Positions 96 through 49,879 of a stretch of DNA of 49,971 nt are shown here, piece after piece. The stretch is from Arcobacter sp. F2176. Its GTDB lineage: Bacteria; Campylobacterota; Campylobacteria; Campylobacterales; Arcobacteraceae. Both the position numbers and the translations under genes were made by a program. Each line of letters opens with the position of its first letter. Positions within the stretch are counted from its first letter, which is position 1. Location of the stretch: positions 1 through 49,971 of the forward strand of contig NZ_PDJV01000018.1 in the NCBI RefSeq assembly GCF_004116465.1, given 5' to 3'. The notes under the pieces are model-generated. The model made no database searches and was not told where the DNA came from. It saw nothing but the letters and a program-made list of their open reading frames with translations.

Positions 96-165
96 ATATA
101 ACGATTGAAATGAGCCAATAAATTTCCCGCAGGGTCAAATATTTCTCTCCAATGATTTGTTATAT
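96..165 (-). other. attC-like recombination site (70 bp)
   Basis: Read on the minus strand the site begins with R'' ATATAAC (165-159) and ends with R' GTTATAT (102-96), the complementary outer boxes of integron attC sites. The internal part includes a CCC-GCA-GGG hairpin tip and the arm TCAAATATTTCTCTCCAA. Nucleotides 130-165 match 49844-49879 at 34 of 36 positions. Pairing of the two arms is imperfect here, which is common in attC sites. It separates two minus-strand genes (171-728 and 1-78). What is seen is the boxes and the shared arm; the attC assignment is inferred. Confidence 0.65.
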
Positions 166-13086: not shown

Positions 13087-13640
13087 ATCCTCTTGAAGAC
13101 TTAGCAGTCTTCGCTTCTCTTACTTTTGTATTGACGAAAAGTAAGCAAAAACAACTACGGCTTCGAAGCCAAAGGTTCCCTCACTTATTATTTTTATCTT
13201 TTCTGATTGGTAAAACTCGTTTATTAAAACTTGCATTTAGCAACTTTTAAACACTCAGGCAGTTACCAATCTTATTTAGAAAAGAGAAAAATAAACGCTC
13301 GGCTTCTGTAGATGTAGCAATATTCTTTGATGTCGTAGCATTACTTTATGAATTCACAGTTAAGATTCTAATGGATTTCTTTCTGCCTTTGATGAAGCTA
13401 AGATTTTAGGCTTTATTTTCGGTGAAAAGTGAGAATATGTCTGAGCGTGAAGAAAGAGTGCTAAACGCACTCTTTTAGTGAGTCTTCGAACGCAGAGAAG
13501 AAAGACTAAAAGCTTAGGTAGCTTTGCCTTCATCAATTTGGCAGTCTTTTTTGCTTACTTTTTTGAGACCATGCGGGAACGCAGTGACTAAATCCCGAAG
13601 GGTAAAAAGTAAGAGAAACGAAGACCGTCAGGTATTCATG
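13087..13640. repeat. Dispersed non-coding repeat element with inverted ends (copy A)
   Basis: This roughly 550-bp element carries no believable ORF. Its left end has CTCTT-GAAGACT-TAGC-AGTCTTC-GCTTCTCTTACTTTT. Its right end is an inverted, diverged version (..AAAAAGTAAGAGAAACGAAGACC-GTCA-GGTATTC). Further nested palindromes include GGCTTCGAAGCC (13160-13171) and an arm pair around GAGTGCTAAACGCACTC near 13457. The same modules recur at 48501-48890 and 48927-49530 with substitutions that keep the hairpins. The right end stops 5 bp before the PIN-like gene stop codon. It could be a MITE-like, REP-like or structured-RNA element. From 12941 to 13086 I see only AT-rich spacer. Confidence 0.75.
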
Positions 13641-13645
13641 ATAAT

Positions 13646-14167
13646 TTACTTAAATAAAGAACCTTCATCTATTATCTTTCTAAATTTCTCTTTTGTCCAA
13701 ATTAAATTATAATATACATGTTCACTATATTGAATTGCTTTATTATAAGATTTTTCATCTTTTGGGATAAATAAAGCTCTTACTTTATTTATACAGGCAT
13801 CTTTAAATATTTTATTATCCCTTGTCATAAAAATTGCATTATTTACCTTTGATAACAAAGCAATAAATCTATCATTTCTATGTTTTTCTGATGTATTATT
13901 TATAAAGTCATCATATTCATTTGAATAAAAAGAACCTTGCCCAAAACCTAATGCATTTGGGTTATCAGCAAAACCAAAAAAACCAATTCTTTTAAATTCT
14001 ATTTCTGATAATTTATTTATAAGTTTTTCTTTTTTAGAATTTAAAATTTCATTCTTAACATAAGTTGGAACCCAAATTTCAATATCTAGTTTTTCAAAAA
14101 AACTTTTTGTCAAACCTAATTCACAACAATAATCTATTATATTTGAATCAATAACTAATCTATTCAT
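13646..14167 (-). CDS. PIN-like domain protein (possible orphan RNase/toxin)
   Basis: This 173-residue soluble protein begins MNRLVIDSNIIDYC, the hydrophobic strand plus Asp that opens a PIN domain. It continues with a helix-rich middle, a second acidic region (RNDRFIALLSKVNNAIFMTRDNKIFKDAC) resembling the later PIN aspartates, and a basic C-terminus. PIN proteins are usually metal-dependent RNases. No antitoxin-size gene overlaps it, which is unusual for a VapC toxin. It stands directly beside repeat copy A. A GTTATAA box lies about 30 nt upstream of its start, as for the first integron cassette gene, but I see no convincing attC. Confidence 0.6.
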   Translation of the reverse strand: MNRLVIDSNIIDYCCELGLTKSFFEKLDIEIWVPTYVKNEILNSKKEKLINKLSEIEFKRIGFFGFADNPNALGFGQGSFYSNEYDDFINNTSEKHRNDRFIALLSKVNNAIFMTRDNKIFKDACINKVRALFIPKDEKSYNKAIQYSEHVYYNLIWTKEKFRKIIDEGSLFK

Positions 14168-46964: not shown

Positions 46965-46998
46965 TTTTTCTCCTAATTTCTTTAAAATATTGTTATGA

Positions 46999-47065
46999 AT
47001 TGTATTGGAAATAAACTTTGAGATAATTTATAACAAGTAAAAATAATTTTTATTCTCTTGAAGAG
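46999..47065 (+). repeat. Left direct repeat (DR1) bracketing the 366-aa gene, running into a hairpin-repeat fragment
   Basis: About 67 bp matches 48445-48511 at roughly 59 positions, the last 26 bp being identical (TAAAAATAATTTTTATTCTC then TTGAAGA). It runs straight into GAAGAGG-TAAATCTTT-CCTCTTTC (47060-47083), a hairpin of the dispersed repeat family, and then TTACTTTTTTTC. Only the end of a repeat element is present here. Confidence 0.7.
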
Positions 47066-47107
47066 GTAAATCTTTCCTCTTTCTTACTTTTTTTCAATAA
47101 AATAATA

Positions 47108-48264: not shown

Positions 48265-48444
48265 AGCTAAGTTTGCCTTTTGATAGTTAATCAGAAGAAA
48301 AATATTTTGGGAAATAAATATATTGAAGAATTAGACTTAAATGAGTTAAAAAAATGATGACTCTTTTTTGTCATAAAAAATTTATTAATGACTTCAAAAA
48401 AGCAAACTTATCAAAAACAATGGTAAAAAATATTTTGTATCATA

Positions 48445-48511
48445 AATTGGATTGGAAATATACTTTATGATAATTTATAATTGATAAAAATAATTTTTAT
48501 TCTCTTGAAGA
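48445..48511 (+). repeat. Right direct repeat (DR2)
   Basis: This is the second copy of the roughly 67-bp direct repeat described at 46999. It ends in the start of the hairpin GAAGAAC-AA-GTTCTTC (48507-48522). The stretch from 48265 to 48444 before it is AT-rich. It contains an inverted pair AAGTTTGC / GCAAACTT (48270-48277 and 48401-48408) and a 38-codon frame (48354-48470) running into DR2, which has no ribosome binding site and which I do not accept as a gene. Confidence 0.7.
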
Positions 48512-48890
48512 ACAAGTTCTTCGCTTTCTCACTTTTTAATTGTAAAAAGTAAGACAAAAAGCAACCAGACGAGTTGATGAAGGCAAAGCTACCCTACAGT
48601 TATATATTTATTTCCTGCCCTGCAAAACTCGCTAAAGAGTGCATTTAGCACTCTTCTTAACGCTCAAACAGTTTCGGGCGTTACCGAAAATAAACATCTA
48701 ATTTCCGGCTTCATCAAAGTCTGGAAAGAAGAAAAGTTCAAACTATAAGTTGTAAATTTACTAAATAGAAATTATAAGCCTAAACAAATCAAAAATGTAA
48801 ATGTCCTTATCCCCTCTTTTCCAACCCCTATAGAAGCTGAGCGTTTGTTTTATTTTTCGAAAAAGGCTTACAACTGTTTGAGCATAACAA
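48501..48890. repeat. Dispersed repeat element, incomplete copy (C1)
   Basis: The left end CTCTT-GAAGAAC-AA-GTTCTTC-GCTTTCTCAC.. corresponds to the left ends of copies A and C2. It contains GAGTGCATTTAGCACTC (about 48636-48652), matching in inverted form the GAGTGCTAAACGCACTC module of copy A. The segment 48781-48882 is about the same as 49261-49365 in copy C2. The expected right end with an inverted hairpin is missing, and copy C2 begins about 35 bp later. No gene is seen. Confidence 0.65.
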
Positions 48891-48924: not shown

Positions 48925-49530
48925 CTCTCTTGAAGAGGTAAACCTCTTCGCTTCTCTTACTTTTACCTTTCAGGATTTACTCACTTCGTTCCAGCATGTA
49001 TTGACGAAAAGTAAGCAAAAGCAACTACGGCTCGGAGCCAAAGGTTCCCCTCACTTATTATTTTTATCTTTTCTGCTTGGCTTGTGCTTGCACTCTCTTT
49101 GAGAAAACTCGCTTATTAAAACAGTTGCCAATCTTGTTTAGAAAAGAGAAAAACAAACATTCGGCTCCTGCAGATGTAGGAAGAAATACCTTCGGTTGTA
49201 ACTTTATCTTAAAAGTTTAAACTCTCTGGTAATAATTAGAGAAAATAAAAGTAAAGAATCTAAACAAATCAAAAATGCAAATGTCCTTATCCCACCTTTT
49301 ATTCCAACATTTGCAAAAGCCGAATGTTTATTTCTCTTTTCGGAAAAGAGTTACAACTGTTTGAGTAAATAAATGTGCTAAATGCACATTTATTTATGAG
49401 TTTTGTAACTCAGGAAAGATAAATAATAAGTGAGGGAACCCAAAGGGCTTTGAAACTCTGTTGGTGGTTTTGCTTACTTTGTCCACACAAAGTAAGAGAA
49501 AGCGGAGACCTTTAGGTGTTTATGAGAAAA
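48925..49530. repeat. Dispersed repeat element, complete copy (C2)
   Basis: This roughly 605-bp non-coding element begins CTCTCTT-GAAGAGGT-AA-ACCTCTTC-GCTTCTCTTACTTTT and ends with the inverted, diverged form ..CACAAAGTAAGAGAAAGCGGAGACC-TTTA-GGTGTTTATGAG. Both ends also hold the inverted module TAAGCAAAA..AAAGGTTCCC(C)TCACTTATTATTT..ATCTTT (49011-49072 and about 49410-49480). The 85-codon frame at 48845 lies in these palindromes and is not a gene. The right end lies 20 bp from the stop of the next minus-strand gene, as copy A does with the PIN-like gene. Confidence 0.75.
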
Positions 49531-49810: not shown

Positions 49811-49879
49811 AGCTAACGGTTGAGTTGAGAAATATTTGAGCCACAGGGTCAAATATTTCTCTCCAAAGTTTTGTTATAT
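49811..49879 (-). other. attC-like recombination site (69 bp)
   Basis: On the minus strand the site runs from R'' ATATAAC (49879-49873) to R' GTTAGCT (49817-49811). The inner arms GAGAAATATTTGA (49827-49839) and TCAAATATTTCTC (49849-49861) pair perfectly over 13 bp with a 9-nt tip. The outer arms (TTGAGTTG against CTCCAAA) pair with bulges, as extrahelical bases do in attC. The size, box order and location between two minus-strand genes all fit. Bases 49844-49879 match 130-165 at 34 of 36 positions. It is the best attC candidate in the window. Confidence 0.75.

Follow-up and report, generated by a model that had tools for sequence, protein, structure and literature searches.

An A/T-rich inverted repeat of Arcobacteraceae with covarying end hairpins and a candidate intrastrand triple helix

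Knowledge of triplex repeats in bacteria dates from the work on PIT and BoxC; we know of no accepted function for them, and it has been unclear whether the triple helix itself matters. In telomerase RNA and the SAM-II riboswitch, pseudoknots form triple helices in which a strand of pyrimidines lies in the major groove of a stem rich in A-U pairs. Among bacterial intrastrand-triplex repeats are BoxC, PIT and TM_ECO of Escherichia coli and relatives (Holder et al. 2015, PMC4666352, which also cites Hoyne and Maher). That paper describes these repeats as G/C-rich and intergenic, without known function or mobility gene, and associated with rearranged loci; TM_ECO is reported from 262 proteobacterial genomes and has the consensus CCCTCNCCC-N3-6-GGGNGAGGG-N3-GGGNGAGGG. 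The paper focuses on G/C-rich motifs and gives A/T-rich motifs as relatively commoner in scrambled sequence, and in the parts consulted we found no description of an A/T-rich family. Literature cited there indicates that the pyrimidine motif forms in RNA and the purine motif does not.

We analysed a window of 49,971 nucleotides (the whole stretch of contig NZ_PDJV01000018.1 of Arcobacter sp. F2176 considered here), which holds copies of a dispersed non-coding repeat of Arcobacteraceae, mostly ~280–600 bp in length. Like BoxC, PIT and TM_ECO, this repeat is dispersed in many copies and intergenic (position examined for 25 Arcobacteraceae elements), sometimes forms inverted pairs with no mobility gene nearby, and has three consecutive tracts, pyrimidine - purine - purine on one strand, with a mirror-image third strand (by the mirror tests in other genomes and, within Arcobacteraceae, by the length of the A run alone). 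Unlike them, it is A/T-rich, the base below its triplex is a fixed TTAC/GTAA, and it has an outer covarying hairpin, an inner conserved stem (module B) and complementarity between the loop and downstream sequence. The window motif, CTTACTTTT..AAAAGTAAGCAAAAA, departs from the TM_ECO consensus, and whereas TM_ECO has 9-nt G/C-rich tracts and is reported from proteobacterial genomes, the present family is spread over many phyla. Judged by sequence, the closest known kind looks like the BoxC/PIT/TM repeats, with the Arcobacteraceae repeat as a new A/T-rich variant. The likeness to RNA pseudoknot triple helices lies in the pyrimidine third strand proposed for the groove of an A-U-type stem and in a loop that can pair with flanking sequence, and the difference in that the candidates here are dispersed repeats. 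Prokaryotic MITEs are likewise short, non-coding and present in many copies near genes, and the present element has terminal inverted repeats. In its flanks no target-site duplication was seen by eye, and searches with PF01797 and PF00078 gave no parent transposon; unlike those of MITEs, its ends are constrained as folded single strands. Our literature search, with most subscription papers outside its coverage, returned no account of the A/T-rich motif, nor of this family from Arcobacter.

Both ends of a full element are inverted copies of one unit. From the outside, the unit reads CTCTT, an outer hairpin (of the type GAAGAGG-TAAA-CCTCTTC), GCTTT, CTTACTTTT-loop-AAAAGTAAG, C and AAAA(A); further inward follow a short run complementary to the loop and the long stem of module B (consensus AACTCG..CTCAAACA). 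The strand on which the unit is read inner to outer is termed the F strand, and when that of the left unit was folded as DNA, the expected hairpins were recovered (z -5.1). Copies in the window are given in Table 1. The right edge of element 1 abuts the stop codon of a minus-strand gene (13646-14167), and an orthologue lies at the matching place in a related complete genome (G001, C1:2054584-2055902). In the right triplex motif of element 1, ACCCTTCGGGATTTAGTCACTGCGTTCCCGCATGG (minus-strand reading) is inserted into the loop; similar enlarged loops are found in L083, L084, L085 and at window position 48950.

Table 1. Repeat features in the window, with the evidence for each.
Feature	Coordinates	Strand	Description	Evidence
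Complete element 1	13088..13644		Two facing inverted units	BLAST against own genome, paired ends, G001 orthologue
Element 1, left outer end	13090..13112	+	CTCTT and variable outer hairpin GAAGACT-TAGC-AGTCTTC (13095-13112)	Sequence, covariation of 64 ends
Element 1, left intrastrand-triplex motif (candidate)	13119..13151	-	CTTACTTTT (13119-13127), loop, AAAAGTAAG (13137-13145), C, third strand AAAAA (13147-13151); read inner to outer on the minus strand, the order is pyrimidine third strand - pyrimidine - purine	Sequence, mirror rule (other genomes), Arcobacteraceae run lengths
Element 1, loop and downstream run	13128..13158		GTATTG (13128-13133) with complementarity to CAACTAC (13152-13158); may form a pseudoknot or an alternative pairing	Sequence
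Element 1, module B	13205..13271	-	Stem GATTGGTAA / TTACCAATC around AACTCG ... CTCAGGCA	Covarying stem, fold z -5.1
Element 1, right triplex motif (candidate)	13547..13613	+	Inverted orientation, enlarged loop	Sequence
Element 1, right outer hairpin	13620..13637	-	GAATACC-TGAC-GGTCTTC from outside; one mismatched pair, T.C	
Solitary degenerate left end CTCTTGAAGAGGTAAATCTTTCCTCTTTCTTACTT	47055..47090	+	Hairpin GAAGAGG-(9)-CCTCTTTC (47060-47083), looser than the others	
Left half-unit without its own right end	48502..48740	+	Hairpin GAAGAAC-AA-GTTCTTC (GAAGAACAAGTTCTTC, 48507-48522)	
Complete element 2	48927..49527		Left hairpin GAAGAGGTAAACCTCTTC (48932-48949), right hairpin (49504-49521)	

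An earlier note on this DNA had drawn attention to four left-end hairpins whose stems change but stay paired between fixed flanks. All four were located (GAAGACTTAGCAGTCTTC, GAAGAACAAGTTCTTC, GAAGAGGTAAACCTCTTC and GAAGAGG-(9)-CCTCTTTC, Table 1), each of them preceded by CTCTT and followed by the TTACTT flank; that note covered left ends only, and the right ends of both complete elements are inverted copies. The paired change it described was borne out among 64 distinct ends from several Arcobacteraceae genomes, aligned by sequence only. The seven-pair outer stem was paired in 86.6% of cells (69.7 ± 1.2 when shuffled) and 68 cells were doubly changed (18.6 ± 3.2 when shuffled, with 0/500 shuffles as high), counts that come from related sequences and not from independent events; neither value was equalled in any of the 500 shuffles. 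Slid controls, with the partner moved by one to three columns, gave at most 29 doubly changed cells. Four Watson-Crick states were present at pair 16-24 and three at pair 17-23, and three independently variable pairs occurred in at least seven combinations. There was also a counter-signal of 10 C.C cells at pair 14-26, from one sub-lineage of ends, and in some right ends the outer hairpin has a C.C mismatch that is fixed. An internal palindrome, previously thought to change in both arms, behaved differently: its outer GGCT/AGCC is nearly constant, and its middle (GGCTTCGAAGCC, GGCTGCGAAGCC, GGCTTCGGAGCC, GGCTGAGAAGCC) varies on one side only.

The cells left unpaired in the outer hairpins indicate which strand is folded. 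Read from outside to inside, they included 45 A.C/C.A and no G.T; on the F strand the A.C cells are G.T wobbles, which brings the paired cells to 432 of 447 (96.6%). Module B, whose stem covaries about a conserved set of letters both in Arcobacteraceae and in other phyla, leans the same way in its non-Watson-Crick cells (6 vs 0). This asymmetry in two helices points to one folded strand, F, although perhaps no more than about 10 events lie behind the signal. In both helices, the outer hairpin and that of module B, pairing is retained as the sequence varies. The fold, rather than the letters, appears to be the target of natural selection, and we regard selection on the structure as very probable. 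A Rho-independent terminator (the hairpin followed by U-rich GCTTTCTTACTTTT) is plausible by the gene-end position of the elements, but was set aside: the wobble asymmetry favours the other strand, and the run of U is interrupted.

The intrastrand-triplex motif, absent from the earlier note, is the most conserved part of the unit and ties the repeat to a much wider family. The purine run behind AAAAGTAAG-C repeats the purine arm of the hairpin in mirror order. At position 5 of the cross-phylum set (the first outside the search pattern), stem and linker read A/A in 51 cases, G/G in 20, A/G in 3 and G/A in 2, and a linker G stood at the offset of the stem G in 29/44 cases (≤8/44 at any other offset). 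Since the G cases of this set came mostly from Clostridia, mirror tests were run within genomes. Mirror identity beyond the fixed AAA was 58/58 positions for the 11 distinct copies of one Clostridia genome (G064) and 98/101 for the 15 copies of another (G063), against 37.4 ± 3.9 and 69.8 ± 4.1, respectively, when linkers were swapped among copies within the genome; 0/5000 permutations gave a value as high as that observed. In 25 of the 26 copies, stem and linker had their first G at an equal offset, which ranges from 3 to 7. A direct-repeat origin of the third strand was rejected, as mirror order fits 91/91 and 143/146 positions and direct order only 67 and 113. Mirror order, which does not allow ordinary antiparallel Watson-Crick pairing, is the signature of a third strand, and this copy-by-copy covariation within single genomes provides evolutionary evidence that the triple helix matters.

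Read on the anti-F strand, the triplex would be of the purine motif (A.A-T, G.G-C), and on the F strand of the pyrimidine motif (U.A-U, C.G-C), in which the third strand would run parallel to the purine arm. In Arcobacteraceae the triplex is short (3–5 triplets, nearly all A) and was assessed by run length only; the lengths of its two runs rise together (3 to 4, 4 to 4–5, and 5 to 5–6). We therefore grade the two cases separately: the triple helix is quite probably the selected form in the wider family, and rather likely to be so in the Arcobacteraceae copies specifically. Complementarity between the loop and the sequence after the linker, above permutation in other phyla (mean 3.88 vs 3.03 ± 0.10 permuted), makes a pseudoknot or an alternative pairing of the loop likely in many copies. 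An H-type pseudoknot was set aside as a reading: the complementarity is significant, but steric feasibility on the F strand is uncertain.

A scan of genome contigs for the exact pattern CTTACTTTT-N4..12-AAAAGTAAGCAAAA matched at least 119 stretches; among the matches listed, contig titles named Bacteroidetes, Clostridia, Gammaproteobacteria, Elusimicrobia, Fusobacteriales, Bdellovibrionales, Gastranaerophilales, Saccharibacteria, Gracilibacteria and others. With a looser pattern, matches were obtained in 25/25 further genomes of several phyla, chosen as carriers of the motif (at least two copies in 22/25, maximum 93), and the backward control pattern gave zero matches in all 25. Some hosts are metagenome bins, in which contamination is possible, and several are isolates (Pontibacter, Dysgonomonas, Luteimonas, Acinetobacter, Pseudomonas). 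Hairpins of at least five pairs directly before CTTAC were three times commoner than at control positions (29 vs 9.5, of 107). No inverted partner unit was found at 99 sites, nearly all in other phyla, and inverted pairing of units was rejected as a general rule; one Arcobacteraceae genome (G011) seems to have lone units too. In two cases, L267 (Clostridia) and L280 (Gastranaerophilales), the triplex motif directly follows the apparent 3' end of a tRNA gene (ggttcgagtccccttcgggtcgcca, then CTTAC...), a placement that suggests a very exact insertion or joining point. On a viral contig (IMG/VR; L249:1496-1632), two tandem direct copies of the triplex hairpin are followed by module B. The spread over many phyla makes the question of whether the triple helix matters testable in many organisms.

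The repeat matched in 15/60 relatives and reaches ~15–25 copies per genome in three congeneric genomes, with 36 BLAST pieces in the window's own genome (G000) and, in the complete genome G001, 19 sites for the exact short inner-hairpin pattern alone. An open reading frame scan placed 18 of 25 complete elements within 35 nt of the stop codon of a gene pointing at the element; the window copy, whose neighbouring gene ends at 13646, is the 19th gene-end element. One orthologous element flank, gaactttatgaggggcataa, is common to locus L034 of G000 and L158 of Arcobacter sp. CECT 8985. From copy number and differing positions we infer that the repeat has probably moved; a joined-flank search for empty sites gave no junction-spanning match, and the Arcobacteraceae element had no match in plasmid and phage collections. 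Comparison of flanks in different species also revealed orthologous sites with different stem types (L040 GAAAACCTAAAGGTTTCC, L075 GAAGACTTAGCAGTCTCC, L091 GAAAAGCAAAGCTTTCC), which suggests that ends are replaced as blocks, through recombination between copies or repeated insertion.

Taken as a whole, the explanation we somewhat favour is a repeat of two inverted units, selected as a folded single strand, most likely single-stranded DNA, and aided by an enzyme acting in trans. On the F strand, a unit would comprise the module B hairpin, a pyrimidine run, the hairpin CUUACUUUU/AAAAGUAAG and, at the very end, the variable outer hairpin, and the major groove of the CUUACUUUU/AAAAGUAAG hairpin would take up the pyrimidine run as third strand. 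Selection would act on this one folded strand, most likely as single-stranded DNA exposed in replication, repair or uptake, and the fold would let the putative enzyme copy or tolerate the repeat. Copies would settle mainly just behind genes, where they may be least harmful, and their ends would be swapped through recombination or when a site receives further insertions. The parts of this account differ in strength: there is good support for selection acting on a folded single strand, and the folded single strand as working form is supported, while the choice of single-stranded DNA over RNA as the acting molecule is a judgement held with modest confidence. The preferred strand and the covarying outer hairpin offer a mechanistic handle for finding the enzyme that acts on the repeats. 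More tentatively, the repeats could possibly belong to a domain-wide, as yet unnamed family defined by the selected triplex (TTAC - pyrimidine tract - loop - purine tract - GTAA - NC - mirror purine tract), which would persist in widely differing bacteria without a dedicated transposase and be copied or used by widely shared host machinery on one folded strand (single-stranded DNA or an RNA triplex pseudoknot).

If the acting molecule were instead a structured RNA, the pyrimidine-type triplex and terminal hairpin of an F-strand transcript would protect or terminate RNA 3' ends. The strand asymmetry (A.C/G.T) favours F, the elements lie at gene ends, and a pyrimidine-motif triplex can form on the F strand, a motif type that forms in RNA according to literature cited in PMC4666352. 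However, where a stop codon abuts the outer side of an element, the transcript of that gene bears the anti-F strand, and solo units in other phyla show no bias towards either strand with respect to adjacent genes (29 vs 26), a balance that argues against a role at the mRNA level. Nor did Rfam 15 contain a family matching at the gathering threshold, or anything meaningful at relaxed thresholds. We consider the RNA reading rather unlikely. Less probable still is a hot spot of replication or recombination, in which the triplex would block polymerases and raise local rearrangement, the fold being kept for that role. Such a role has been proposed for the E. coli TM repeats, and Holder et al. 2015 (PMC4666352) tie such repeats to rearranged loci; the present repeat has the pyrimidine-purine-purine arrangement of TM_ECO, and its ends differ at orthologous sites. 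On its own, though, this role leaves the covarying outer hairpins, module B and the strand-specific wobble pairs unexplained.

The earlier note had also suggested a REP-like or IS200-type mobile element, and here its reading divides: the folded single strand under selection holds up on the covariation, whereas the assignment to that element type does not. As in REP/BIME/REPIN sequences, hairpins occur in inverted pairs in intergenic DNA, with stems that vary while pairing is kept and a constraint on the single strand, as a non-autonomous element moved by a Y1 transposase (RAYT or TnpA) might show. In REP sequences, however, one foot of the hairpin carries a GTAG or CGTC tag (PMC3733652), and no such tag stands beside the hairpin in our alignment (A1), where the feet are CTCTT and GCTT; the present repeat is also much longer, with a conserved interior. 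The ends of IS200/IS605-type elements are not inverted copies and their transposase is present, unlike here, where the ends are inverted copies and the IS200/REP transposase family PF01797 was absent from the copy-rich genomes G000 and G010 (controls positive). The Y1 transposase genes of relatives had no copy of the unit nearby. A Y1 transposase was rejected as mobiliser on its absence from copy-rich genomes, and a REPIN/BIME or IS200-type origin is very improbable. A reverse transcriptase was likewise rejected, being missing from the copy-rich genomes G001 and G002, and searches with PF01797 and PF00078 revealed no transposase gene with the ends of the element. An open frame of 590 amino acids with a reverse transcriptase domain lies ~1 kb from copy L264 (G000:C7:136701-137147), probably by chance given that absence.

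That there is no selection, and that paired changes come from hairpin-templated quasi-palindrome correction or wholesale exchange of a few hairpin types, finds some favour in the handful of recurring stem types and in the orthologous sites that differ in type (L040/L075/L091), but is hardly credible given the seven or more combinations of three independently changing pairs and a near-perfect mirror-image third strand within genomes that templated correction cannot yield.

Smaller and composite forms of the inverted-unit repeat were also observed. Minimal elements of ~80–90 nt (L114 around 591-678, L117 around 664-752) consist of two end units with almost no interior, one central hairpin lying between two outer hairpins. 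In the window, a 111-nt direct repeat (75% identical, 46995-47105 and 48442-48552) includes element ends and AT-rich upstream sequence, and similar sequence flanks element L077 in G001, which suggests that flank and element were duplicated together. Another short repeat, distinct from this one, CCGCAGGGTCAAATATTTCTCTCCAA, occurs at window positions 127-165 and 49841-49879, the latter copy preceded by its own inverted arm GAGAAATATTTGAGCC, and looks like another palindromic dispersed repeat family.
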